From NCBI GenBank assembly GCA_030602985.1, contig JAUVYR010000005.1, positions 1-47,439 of the forward strand: DNA of 47,439 nt. Reading direction: 5' to 3'. Shown piece after piece: positions 42,758-47,439 of this stretch; within the stretch, counting starts at the first letter, position 1, and each line of letters begins with the position of its first letter. The notes beneath the pieces were generated by a model. That model saw nothing but the letters and a program-made list of their open reading frames with translations, did not search any database and had not been told where the DNA came from. A program made the position numbers and the translations under genes. This DNA is from Burkholderiales bacterium. GTDB taxonomy: Bacteria; Pseudomonadota; Gammaproteobacteria; Burkholderiales; Burkholderiaceae_C.

Positions 42758-43975
42758 ATGAAACTCAATGACACCATCCTGGCCCAGGCGCCCAAGCTGA
42801 CACAGATCCGGCGCGACCTGCATGCCCACCCCGAACTCTGCTACCAGGAGGTTCGCACCGCCGACCTGGTGGCGGCCAAGCTGACTGAGTGGGGCATCGA
42901 ATGCCACCGTGGACTGGGGGTGACCGGCGTGGTGGGGGTGCTGCATGGCCGCGACGGCGGCGCCTGTGGCCGCGGCGTGGGTCTGCGGGCCGACATGGAT
43001 GCCTTGCCCATGACCGAGCTCAACACCTTCGCGCATACCAGCCAGCATCCCGGCAAGATGCACGCCTGTGGCCACGACGGCCACACGGCCATGCTGCTGG
43101 CCGCCGCCCAGCACCTGTCCACCCACCGGAATTTCGACGGCACGGTCTATCTGATCTTCCAGCCTGCCGAAGAAGGCGGTGGTGGGGCACGTGCCATGAT
43201 CGAAGACGGTCTGTTCGAGCGCTTCCCCATGGAAGCGGTGTTTGGCATGCACAACTGGCCGGGCTACCCCGCAGGCACCTTTGCCGTCAGTCCGGGGCCG
43301 GTGATGGCTTCCAGCAACGAATTCAAGATCACGATCCGAGGCAAGGGCAGCCATGCCGCCCTGCCCCACAACGGCATCGACCCGGTCCCGATTGCCTGCC
43401 AGATGGTGCAGGCCTTCCAGACCGTGATCACCCGCAACAAGAAGCCAGTGGACGCGGGCGTGATTTCCGTCACCATGATCCATGCGGGTGAAGCCACCAA
43501 CGTGGTGCCTGACCATTGCGTGCTGCAGGGCACCGTGCGCACCTTCACGCTGGAGGTGCTGGACCTGATCGAACAGCGGATGCGGGACATCGCTCAACAC
43601 ACCTGTGCAGCCTTCGGCGCACACTGCGAATTCGAGTTCAAACGCAACTACCCGCCGACCGTCAATACCCCGGCCGAAGCCGACTTTGCCCATGAGGTGA
43701 TGCAAGCCATTGTGGGGGATGCACAGGTCTGGAACCAGGAGCCGACCATGGGGGCCGAGGACTTCGCTTTCATGTTGCAGGCCAAACCGGGCGCCTATTG
43801 CTTCATCGGCAATGGCGATGGCACGCATCGGGGGCGATACGAGGGCGGAGGACACGATGCCGGCCCCTGCACGCTGCACAACCCGCGATACGACTTCAAT
43901 GACGAGCTGATCCCGCTGGGTGGGACTTACTGGGTCGAACTGGCCACGCGCTGGCTGGGCACACCAAAGCGCTGA
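42758..43975 (+). CDS. M20-family amidohydrolase (hippurate/N-acyl amino acid hydrolase-like)
   Basis: This 405-residue metal-dependent amidohydrolase has the motifs [40 protein letters not shown] and FGMHNWPG, and a late [10 protein letters not shown]. These are standard for the M20D aminoacylase/hippurate hydrolase group. It would cleave N-acyl or N-benzoyl amino acids, or indole-3-acetyl conjugates. The ATG at 42758 has GAGGC upstream. Its last 49 bases overlap the 3' end of coaX on the opposite strand. Confidence 0.9.
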
Positions 43976-44724
43976 GCCGCGATGGCCAGTAGGCCATCGA
44001 AAATCAGGCTTTCCACGAGTTCGAATGGCACCGTCATGCTGGGTGCCATTTTCCAGGCGGCGCCGCCCGTCATGATGCAGGCTGGGTCTTGGCCCGTGTG
44101 CTGGTAGAGGTTGTCTCTCATGCGCTGCACCGCCCCCGCAATCGCAAACGTGCCGCCACTGGTCAGGGCGTCGCTGGTGTTGGTGGGAAAGTGGCGCACT
44201 TCACCGGTGGGCACATGCAGACCGGCGGTGCCCGATTCGAGCGCACGTAGCATGATGCCATGACCGGGCAGGATGATGCCGCCCAGAAAGCGTCCCTCTG
44301 CGTCGATCGCCTCGACGGTGACAGCGGTGCCCACCATGACCAGGACACAGGGGCGTGAAGGCTCACGAGCCAGCAGCCGTTGACGAGCGCCGATCATGGC
44401 CACCCAGCGGTCCGAACCCAGGCGAGCGGGGTGGTCGTAACCATTGATCAGACCCGCCTCTTCACTGCTCGACACCACCCACTGCGGCGCCACATCCCAC
44501 AGCTCCAGTTGCTCCTGAACCCGGCGCTTGACGGCATCCCCCGCTACCACGCAACCCAGGACATGGGTCGGGGGTTTGAGAGACGCCCAATCGCCTTCAG
44601 CGAGTTTTTCAATGTTCTCCAGAAACTGGACTCCGTGCGCCACCATGCGCGCACCCGCGCCCGGCTCCTCGTACAGCGCCCACTTCAGACGCGTGTTCCC
44701 CACATCCAGTGCTAGCAATGTCAT
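43927..44724 (-). CDS. coaX: Type III pantothenate kinase
   Basis: CoaX phosphorylates pantothenate, the first step of coenzyme A synthesis; it is the non-regulated type III form common in betaproteobacteria (Bvg accessory factor family). The 265-residue protein begins [17 protein letters not shown] and shows [26 protein letters not shown] and [12 protein letters not shown], all ASKHA-fold motifs. The ATG at 44724 gives the canonical start; the opening to 44814 is not supported. It follows the persulfide dioxygenase gene by 49 bases on the same strand. Confidence 0.94.
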
Positions 44725-44773
44725 GGGCGGATGATAGCTTGACCCTTGTACTCCGGGTATCTCGACGTACGCA

Positions 44774-45898
44774 TCAGTTCTGCCGCCAGGGCAAGCCATG
44801 ATGACGCCACCCACCGGTTTGCCCCCGGTGGCCTGCTCCGTCGGGATCGCCCTCGAAACCTTCCAGCACGTTATAAGCCTCGAAGCCCTGCTCTGTGGCC
44901 CGTTTCGCGGCGGCTATTGAACGCGCACCGCTGCGGCAGAGCATCAGCAGCTTCTTGTCGCTGTGCGCCAGTTTTTGCAAGCCAGCGTCGAAGTCCGCAT
45001 TCATGACCATACCTGGCCATTGCTTCCAGGCCAGCGCCACCGCGCCTGGCACAAAACCCACCCACTCCCGCTCAGCATCCGTGCGCACATCGACCAGCAC
45101 CGCTTCGCCGGTCTGTACCCATTGCCACGCCAATACCGGTGAGACGTCACCCGCATAGCCGCTGGCTGGGCGTGGCACCTGCAGCAAGGCCCCATCGGCA
45201 TCGTGACGCAAGCCAGAGACCAGATTGGCAGGCACTGCTTCGTCGATACGCTTGGGCCGAGGCAGATTCAGGTTGTTCATGATCGCCACGAACTCGTCCA
45301 GGCTTTTGCCTGCAATGCGGGCGTTGTGGGCTTTTTCATGCCCGATGGTGCTGTGTGTGCGCCCCTGGTAGTCGTGGCCAGGCCAGACCACTGTGTCATC
45401 AGGCAGTCGGAACAGCACTTCAGTGAGGCTGTGGTACAGCGCCTGAGGACTGCCGGATTGGAAATCGGTGCGGCCGCAGCCGTTGATCAGGAGGGTGTCG
45501 CCGGTGAACACGTGGTGTTTGTCATCGTCTTGCCAGGTGAAGCACATACTCCCGGCGGTATGACCAGGGGTTGCCCGGGCACGGATCTTATGACGACCAA
45601 ATGCGAGTTCGTCGCCATCTTTAAGCTGGCAGGACGCCGTCGTGATGCCACAGGCAGCCGGCGCTGCCGTACGAGCGCCCACATGTTCAGCCAGCTTGCC
45701 CGCACTGGTGATATGGTCGGCATGGGCATGGGTTTCGACCGCCCAGACCAGCTTCAAGCCATATTCACGCAAGACGGCCAGATCACGATCCAGCTGCAGG
45801 TCCACCGGATCGATGATGAGTGCCTCTCGTGTTTCGGCATCGTGAAGCACATAGGTGTAAGTGCTGGAGTCCGGGTCGAATAGTTGAATGGGTCGCAT
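44774..45898 (-). CDS. Persulfide dioxygenase-rhodanese fusion protein
   Basis: This 374-residue protein joins an ETHE1-type metallo-beta-lactamase-fold domain to a C-terminal rhodanese domain. The first domain has HAHADH at 57-62, and His113 and Asp134 as further iron-site candidates (PGHTAGS; FTGDTLL). The rhodanese loop CRSGARS holds the active Cys321. Such fusions oxidise glutathione persulfide to sulfite and combine sulfite with persulfide sulfur to give thiosulfate, so they detoxify sulfide. The ATG at 45898 starts [16 protein letters not shown]. It is divergent from icmF across a perfect palindrome. Confidence 0.93.
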
Positions 45899-46004
45899 GG
45901 CTTCAACAAGATTGGAAAAATGAGCAGAAGTGCCCCATAAATATACCGCGTAGGGTAATGTTGGGTGGCAAGAGGCTTGGAGTTTTCAAGATTCGAAAAT
46001 CGCA

Positions 46005-46032
46005 GTAATATTGACGTTTACGTAAACGTCAA
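46005..46032 (-). promoter_or_regulatory. Predicted divergent promoter of the persulfide dioxygenase gene
   Basis: On the minus strand TTGACG (46032-46027), a 16-base spacer and TATTAC (46010-46005) mirror the icmF promoter within the same palindrome. The leader to the ATG at 45898 would be about 100 bases. A TATATT near the gene without a good -35 is the alternative. Confidence 0.4.
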
Positions 46033-46033
46033 T
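46010..46033. promoter_or_regulatory. Perfect 24-bp palindrome, candidate operator for icmF and the persulfide dioxygenase gene
   Basis: Each half reads ATTGACGTTTAC, without any mismatch or spacer. The symmetric sequence carries a TTGACG hexamer on each strand, so it overlaps the -35 boxes of two divergent promoter-like arrangements. Its ACGTTTACGT-type core resembles sites described for MerR-family regulators of branched-chain amino acid and fatty acid use (LiuR type); that link is from memory and is an inference. Confidence 0.75.
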
Positions 46034-46039
46034 TAAAAC
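46011..46039 (+). promoter_or_regulatory. Predicted promoter of icmF
   Basis: TTGACG (46011-46016), a 17-base spacer and TAAAAC (46034-46039) form a good sigma-70 match; the whole spacer lies in the palindrome. The predicted start near 46046 leaves a leader of about 24 bases that contains AGGAG. A small hairpin (ACCCC/GGGGT, 46038-46052) overlaps the start site. Confidence 0.6.
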
Positions 46040-46069
46040 CCCTGCCCGGGGTGCCTTCAGGAGACACCA

Positions 46070-47439
46070 ATGACCGATCTGTCCGCCGAATTCAAAGCCC
46101 TGGCTGACTACCGCCCTGTGCACAAGGTGCGTTTCGTCACGGCAGCGAGCCTGTTCGACGGTCACGACGCCGCGATCAACATCATGCGGCGCATTCTGCA
46201 GAGCATGGGTGCGGAAGTGATTCACCTGGGCCACAACCGCTCGGTGGACGAGGTGGTGACCGCAGCACTGCAGGAAGACGCCCAAGGCATTGCGATCAGC
46301 TCCTACCAGGGCGGGCATGTGGAGTATTTCAAGTACATGGTGGACCTGCTGCGCGAGCGCGGCGGCGAGCATGTGCAGGTGTTTGGCGGCGGCGGCGGTG
46401 TCATCGTGCCCAGCGAAATCCGCGAATTGCATGCATACGGTGTCGGCCGTATATATAGCCCGGAAGATGGGCAGCGCATGGGCCTGCAGGGCATGATTGG
46501 CGAGATGGTGATGCGCTGTGATAAGGATTTGTCACCCTACGCACCCCAATCGGTCGAAGCCATTCAGGGCCACAGCGAAGCAGCCTGGCGTGCACTGGCC
46601 CAGCTGATCACCGTGATTGAAAACCAGTCGGCCAACGCCGACCTGGTGAATGGCTTGCGATCCGCTGCTGAGGGCCTGAAAGTGCCGGTGCTGGGCATCA
46701 CCGGTACGGGCGGTGCGGGCAAATCCTCACTCACCGACGAACTGATCCGCCGCTTCCGTCTGGACCAGAACGACCGCCTGCGGATCGCGGTCATCAGTAT
46801 CGACCCGTCACGCCGCAAGAGCGGCGGCGCACTGCTGGGCGACCGCATCCGCATGAATGCCATCTCTCCATGGCAACAGGGCTCGCGCGTGTACATGCGC
46901 TCACTGGCCACTCGCGATTTTGGCTCGGAGATTTCCGCCGCCCTGCCCGACGTGGTCGCCGCCTGCAAGGTCGCGGGCTTTGACCTGGTGATCGTGGAAA
47001 CCTCGGGCATTGGCCAGGGGGACGCCGCCATCGTGCCGCATGTGGATGTGCCCATGTATGTGATGACGCCGGAGTTTGGCGCGGCCAGCCAGCTGGAAAA
47101 GATCGACATGCTGGACTTTGCCGAATTCGTGGCGATCAACAAGTTCGATCGAAAGGGAGCCCTGGACGCTCTGCGCGACGTGAGCAAGCAGGTGCAGCGT
47201 AACAAGGAAGCCTGGGGCACCCCGACCGACAAGATGCCCGTGTTCGGCACCATGGCTGCACGCTTCAATGACGACGGTGTGACGGCGCTGTATCAGGCCC
47301 TGAAGGAGCGGCTGGCTGGCTTGGGGTTGACCCTTAACGACGGCCGCCTGCCACTGGTCAGCGTACGTCACAGCAGCAATCAGACGCCGATCGTGCCACC
47401 GGCGCGCACCCGCTACCTGGCCGAGATTGCCGACACCGT
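46070..47439 (+). CDS. icmF: IcmF, fused acyl-CoA mutase with B12 and GTPase-chaperone domains (5' part only)
   Basis: IcmF interconverts isobutyryl-CoA and n-butyryl-CoA (or related acyl-CoAs) with coenzyme B12. The visible 456 residues contain an N-terminal B12-binding domain (base-off motif DGH at 30-32, then [12 protein letters not shown]) and a MeaB-like GTPase domain. The GTPase domain has Walker [13 protein letters not shown] (209-220), [10 protein letters not shown] and NKFDRKG. The mutase domain would follow beyond the window. This domain order is diagnostic of IcmF as opposed to methylmalonyl-CoA mutase. The ATG at 46070 has AGGAG seven bases upstream. Confidence 0.94.

Follow-up and report, generated by a model that had tools for sequence, protein, structure and literature searches.

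A predicted LiuR operator at the icmF promoter of a Burkholderiales bacterium and a probably separate circuit for the divergent persulfide dioxygenase gene

The fused isobutyryl-CoA mutase IcmF has been studied in Cupriavidus metallidurans. LiuR is a MerR-family repressor of the utilization of isoleucine, leucine, and valine (PMC3223726); for its distribution, the table of one source counts 103 genomes in 15 groups and the text 104 regulons in 16 regulogs (PMC5343134), and a link between LiuR and butyrate assimilation has been described for Rhodospirillum rubrum (PMC7238569). For persulfide oxidation, the described system is a dioxygenase–rhodanese circuit in which ScCsoR represses the persulfide dioxygenase through a 16-bp binding site and requires Cys37 and Cys66 for its response to sulfane sulfur (PMC7533328). 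A related Thermus protein requires TAC/GTA inverted repeats at a set spacing (PMC10318464).

We analyzed a 47,439-nucleotide stretch of DNA, called the window below, that forms contig C85 of a 73%-complete, 2.11-Mb Burkholderiales assembly. Between divergent genes for IcmF and a persulfide dioxygenase, it carries a perfect 24-bp palindrome, ATTGACGTTTACGTAAACGTCAAT (Table 1). We consider it very probable that this palindrome is a LiuR operator repressing icmF and that the dioxygenase is controlled separately, through a CsoR/CstR-type operator of its own. Gene identities were based on tblastn and family searches. The icmF gene is cut by the contig end, and its NF045497 score for that reason falls below the whole-protein cut-off; residues 18–456 align to positions 1–436 of the 1,076 in the NCBIfam IcmF model. 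The dioxygenase matches BpPRF (5ve3, E = 1.5e-65 over residues 5–344) and ETHE1 (4chl, E = 2.4e-64), and an ETHE1-like dioxygenase domain is followed by rhodanese, the order of the BpPRF type.

Table 1. Features of the icmF–dioxygenase region, in coordinates of the window
Feature	Position	Strand	Remarks
Type III pantothenate kinase (coaX)	43927–44814	−	PF03309, E = 1.3e-47; next after the dioxygenase
Persulfide dioxygenase–rhodanese fusion	44774–45898	−	BpPRF/ETHE1 matches; Pfam Lactamase_B and Rhodanese
Separate 16-bp operator-like element before the dioxygenase, TTACCCTACGCGGTAT	45943–45958	−	Inside conserved 21-bp island 45939–45959
Candidate icmF promoter P1	45983–46011	+	TTTTCA 45983–45988, 17 bp, TAATAT 46006–46011
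Minus-strand promoter of the first-pass annotation	46005–46032	−	TTGACG 46032–46027, 16 bp, TATTAC 46010–46005; TTCTAC in congener
LiuR operator (predicted), perfect 24-bp palindrome	46010–46033	no strand	22-bp core 46011–46032
First 16-bp LiuR box register (putative), TTGACGTTTACGTAAA	46011–46026	+	14-mer core with 0 mismatches; 10-bp overlap with second register
Candidate icmF promoter P2 (that of the first-pass annotation)	46011–46039	+	TTGACG 46011–46016, 17 bp, TAAAAC 46034–46039
Second 16-bp LiuR box register (putative), TTTACGTAAACGTCAA	46017–46032	+	14-mer core with 0 mismatches; 6 bp downstream of first register
icmF, fused isobutyryl-CoA mutase/GTPase, 5' part	46070–47437	+	NF045497, E = 7.7e-211; Pfam B12-binding and MeaB

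The first-pass annotation had described the palindrome and the two divergent genes around it correctly, together with a TTGACG on each strand at spacings of 17 and 16 bases from TAAAAC and TATTAC. The palindrome is far above chance: base composition predicts 0.0045 perfect 24-bp palindromes for the window and 0.20 for the whole 2.11-Mb assembly, and the second-longest palindrome of the window measures 14 bp. With up to three mismatches allowed, ATTGACGTTTACGTAAACGTCAAT has a single occurrence in the window and none in 100 shuffles.

The 22-bp core is found at three places in the source genome, namely in the window, at C24:33050-33071 (exact), and at C22:6521-6542 (one mismatch). A looser 23-mer search returned the identical three places, as did the 14-mer core with 0 mismatches; at ≤1 mismatch, the 14-mer gave 15 matches in total vs. 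14 for a reversed-pattern control. At C24, the site precedes etfB by 42 bp; etfA comes next (both with ETF domains), and an enoyl-CoA hydratase gene is found on the opposite side of the site. The C22 site lies immediately 5' of a short-chain dehydrogenase gene, probably of the hydroxyacyl-CoA type. In the genome-wide search that the first-pass annotation had proposed, the matches cluster at acyl-CoA genes (icmF, etfB, and the short-chain dehydrogenase gene). No LiuR gene was found in the assembled part of this 73%-complete genome, and the two MerR genes present there appear to encode metal sensors. Separately, a histone-deacetylase-family gene (PF00850; L167:5936-6886) adjoins the enoyl-CoA hydratase gene by the etfBA site, and the corresponding gene stands, by eye, in the equivalent place in Tepidicella (L129:6265-7245).

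Relatives supply a candidate for the regulator. In a 99%-complete congener from the family members searched (G251), the site lies 40 bp from icmF, 53 bp from etfB, and, with two mismatches, 5' of the dehydrogenase gene; it also flanks both sides of a MerR gene, after which come a thioesterase gene and an isovaleryl-CoA dehydrogenase gene. Tepidicella baoligensis, which is the nearest of the named relatives (icmF 93%), shows the same set of sites, five of its six being assigned to icmF, etfB, dehydrogenase, and liuR-type genes and the sixth (L131) to none of these. Its MerR protein, to which that of G251 is 89% identical, matches PF13411 and PF09278, and the closest solved structures to the dehydrogenase encoded beside it are isovaleryl-CoA dehydrogenases. 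The combination of a MerR gene beside isovaleryl-CoA dehydrogenase with a site at the MerR gene's own promoter is seen in L128 and L204. As a MerR-family gene adjoining isovaleryl-CoA dehydrogenase, as described for LiuR, the gene of Tepidicella and G251 fits LiuR.

The site and LiuR also occur together more widely. Among 150 genomes of the order, the 20-mer site (≤1 mismatch) was detected in 45 and LiuR (E ≤ 1e-15) in 56. LiuR was present in 44 of the 45 site-bearing genomes vs. 12 of the 105 site-less ones (P = 1.2e-25, Fisher test, shared ancestry ignored), the lone site-bearing genome without it being the 73%-complete source of the window. Among the matches listed, 29 of 32 LiuR genomes have a site ≤300 bp from a LiuR match, G019, G064, and G143 being the three without one. 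At four gammaproteobacterial loci (L077, L081, L082, and L084), an opposite-strand MerR gene starts 205–643 bp from the icmF match and the box falls in the interval; in L077 and L082, a gene read as thioesterase-like separates the box from the MerR gene. The palindrome is thus likely a transcription-factor operator at icmF with LiuR as its regulator, and the LiuR-type protein that the first-pass annotation had guessed from motif shape is well supported by the isovaleryl-CoA dehydrogenase neighborhood and the co-occurrence. The name LiuR rests on gene neighborhood and co-occurrence, both of which share ancestry.

Conservation at icmF was assessed in 80 homologous loci taken from genome_contigs records, using 1,100 bp of upstream sequence and thresholds of ≤2 mismatches for the 20-mer and ≤1 for the 16-bp box. 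The 20-mer site was present upstream of icmF in 45 loci, mostly ≤130 bp away, and the 16-bp box alone in 6 more (5 exact and 1 with one mismatch); the reversed-pattern controls gave 0 and 0. The icmF half of the two-gene claim is well supported. Within the 1,100 bp, neither form was found in 29 of the 80 loci, two of which have <350 bp of upstream DNA. In five loci (L013, L019, L021, L029, and L048), the box lies ~0.9–1 kb upstream of icmF (about 0.94 kb in L029).

Several arrangements were noted on the way. A gene reading like polyphosphate kinase 2 (ppk2) lies directly 5' of icmF, in the same direction, in L013, L019, L021, L035, L044, and L048; in four of these (L013, L019, L021, and L048) the ppk2-like gene is preceded by the LiuR box, and a single 16-bp box stands about 0.9 kb 5' of icmF in L035 and L044. 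At the place expected for the LiuR box, L051 and L075 have a 15-bp variant with one central base fewer, TTGACGTTACGTCAA (complete in L075). We also considered a local regulator gene before icmF in the site-less loci and rejected it, as most such genes look like polyphosphate kinase 2.

The 22-mer holds two 16-bp registers of TTKACGTNNACGTMAA with an offset of 6 bp, and we infer that it is a doublet of two overlapping LiuR boxes; given this offset, two LiuR dimers would sit on roughly opposite faces of the helix. The letters of the 16-bp box gave no match in a full-text literature search. Exact single boxes (TTGACGTTAACGTCAA and similar) lie 10–58 bp from the LiuR match in six genomes (G038, G041, G058, G101, G122, and G133), that is, in half of the 12 that have LiuR and lack the longer site, the other six having no 16-bp box near LiuR; at icmF, a single box replaces the longer site in the 6 of 80 loci mentioned above. 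These cases, and a central ACGT that all 43 of 43 aligned promoters share, albeit in a set chosen by motif similarity, count against a 22-bp site that binds one LiuR dimer through widely spaced half-sites, with the ACGT kept for DNA shape and no doublet. MerR dimers typically bind about 20 bp and all 24 bp form one perfect palindrome, both in keeping with a single dimer, which we regard as possible, if rather doubtful.

Two plus-strand promoters, P1 and P2, are candidates for icmF. The −10 box of P1 ends on the base with which the 22-bp core begins, and use of P1 would put the operator over the transcription start; P2 draws on the TTGACG of the operator. Among 46 promoters, the dinucleotide TA occurs at the P1 −10 offset in 16 and at the P2 −10 offset in 18, vs. 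means of about 1.6 and 1.9, respectively, at other upstream offsets. The P1 −10 is kept in the two closest relatives (TAGAAT in the congener and TAACAT in Tepidicella), and that of P2 is lost in both (CAAAAC and CAACCG). P1 has a weak −35 (TTTTCA), and promoters of the P1 type share no single −35. A stricter sigma-70 rule (9 of 12 matches, with A and T required at −10 positions 2 and 6, respectively) found no promoter in 45850–46120, so the two promoters of the first-pass annotation rest on weak −10 boxes. Whichever of P1 and P2 is used, operator and core promoter overlap, an arrangement that fits repression.

The −10 of the minus-strand promoter probably represents the icmF P1 −10 region seen on the complementary strand: in the congener, TATTAC has become TTCTAC on the minus strand while TAATAT has become TAGAAT on the plus strand, a better −10 for icmF. 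The minus-strand −10 proposed earlier is therefore more likely the icmF −10 read backwards. In the icmF leader, at 46038–46052, lies a small G+C-rich hairpin (ACCCCTGCCCGGGGT on the plus strand) that looks terminator-like on the minus strand; by eye, Tepidicella has a hairpin of different sequence at the equivalent position, and none is obvious in the congener.

On the dioxygenase side, the distance between the box and the gene varies. It is 112 bp in the window (114 bp to the core used for other loci) and 278 bp in the congener. Among 12 loci with an N-terminal dioxygenase match, a count that leaves out eight loci whose matches miss the N terminus, six have a box ≤700 bp from the dioxygenase start (at 108 bp in L043 and at 332, 337, 374, 437, and 451 bp in the others), and no box was found within that distance in the other six. 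The dioxygenase has a separate element, TTACCCTACGCGGTAT, that agrees with ATAC-N8-GTAT at 7 of 8 bases. The 21-bp island around it (ATTACCCTACGCGGTATATTT on the minus strand) keeps 20 of 21 bases in the congener, where its spacing to the box is not the same.

This element resembles sites that relatives carry. In L011, L014, L021, L034, and L048, the dioxygenase follows a CsoR-family gene (PF02583 shown for L011), and the protein of L011 (7593–7838), and of that relative only, has 81 residues, PF02583, Cys37 and Cys61, and no His. A family-wide CsoR search gave 20 matches in 17 of 100 genomes, with a dioxygenase match beside 12 of the 13 strongest (not L181) and none of the 7 weakest. Of the 18 loci made up of the 5 above and these 13, 11 have an exact ATAC-N8-GTAT no more than 300 bp 5' of the CsoR-family gene. 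By position, exact sites accompany 9 of the 10 CsoR-family genes away from a LiuR box (L172, L176, L178, L180–L182, L184, L034, and L048; L181 without a detected dioxygenase) vs. 2 of the 8 abutting one (L011 and L021). In the remaining six abutting loci (L014, L173, L174, L175, L179, and L183), no ATAC-N8-GTAT was found ≤300 bp upstream even at ≤1 mismatch; several of them show, by eye, −10-like boxes near the CsoR gene. The window and the congener lack the CsoR gene at this locus and, at E ≤ 1e-15, across both genomes; the one PF02583 match of the source genome reads as a different paralogue. Judging from these comparisons, the dioxygenase most likely has a CsoR/CstR-type operator (ATAC-N8-GTAT) of its own, independent of LiuR.

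The first-pass annotation had instead proposed one shared operator, by which LiuR would switch both icmF and the divergent dioxygenase and link acyl-CoA breakdown to persulfide oxidation. The geometry of the window permits this, with the box 112 bp from the dioxygenase start and a minus-strand TTGACG-16-TATTAC, as does the 108 bp of L043, and six of the eight loci where a CsoR–dioxygenase operon abuts the box have no ATAC-N8-GTAT. We nevertheless find it improbable in view of the 278 bp of the congener and the 332–451 bp of five of the six other loci with a box ≤700 bp away, the six of 12 dioxygenase starts without such a box, the loss of the minus-strand −10 in the congener, and the separate conserved element 5' of the dioxygenase.

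A narrower version, that in this genus, where the locus has no CsoR-type gene, the LiuR doublet also influences the dioxygenase and so forms a joint acyl-CoA/persulfide switch, seems to us equally unlikely. Its one pointer is the absence of ATAC-N8-GTAT from six of the eight abutting loci vs. one of ten elsewhere; with those six lacking the site, some LiuR influence on the divergent CsoR–dioxygenase operon is possible. Loss of human ETHE1 is linked to ethylmalonic aciduria, and the joint switch, if true, would be a bacterial counterpart to that link. The case also shows how two genes diverging from one intergenic region can look jointly switched when their arrangement in relatives lends no support to this.

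The remaining alternative, a FadP-like TetR-family protein in place of LiuR, appears very unlikely and was rejected: in Comamonadaceae, fatty acid degradation is regulated by FadP, a protein of the TetR type (PMC5343134), and the source genome has a TetR gene directly 5' of a gene reading as an acyl-CoA dehydrogenase, but the contig of that gene has no site at ≤3 mismatches and the site tracks the MerR gene, in Tepidicella and the congener as in the 29 of 32 genomes noted above among the matches listed.

In the mechanism that we favor, a LiuR operator at icmF and a separate dioxygenase circuit, LiuR at the palindrome would overlap the icmF promoter and most likely repress icmF, and an inducer, probably a pathway intermediate, would release it from the operator. 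The site would be occupied as a doublet, by way of its two 16-bp boxes with their 6-bp offset. The etfBA genes, the short-chain dehydrogenase gene, and the liuR–thioesterase–isovaleryl-CoA dehydrogenase genes would be co-regulated with icmF, and the divergent persulfide dioxygenase would respond in a different circuit through its own ATAC-N8-GTAT operator of the CsoR/CstR type.

The IcmF of the window belongs to the same enzyme family (NF045497) as that of Cupriavidus metallidurans. A literature search did not find icmF named as a LiuR target; RegPrecise and Kazakov et al. 2009, which lay outside the search, may list it. Our reading would make icmF a member of the LiuR regulon across many Burkholderiales and in some other Proteobacteria, and the B12 enzyme would then likely be used during branched-chain and short-chain acyl-CoA breakdown. 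The dioxygenase side is like the CstR and ScCsoR systems in that relatives have a CsoR-family gene before the dioxygenase and frequently, upstream of that gene, a 16-bp ATAC-N8-GTAT site, and unlike them in that the CsoR gene is absent at the window locus and in the 99%-complete congener, whereas the element is retained. The icmF side resembles the LiuR regulon in its MerR regulator beside isovaleryl-CoA dehydrogenase, in the sites around the regulator's own gene, and in its acyl-CoA targets. It differs from the 16-bp LiuR box in that the site here appears as a 22-bp doublet, and such an overlapping double box would bear on how a MerR-type repressor reads DNA.
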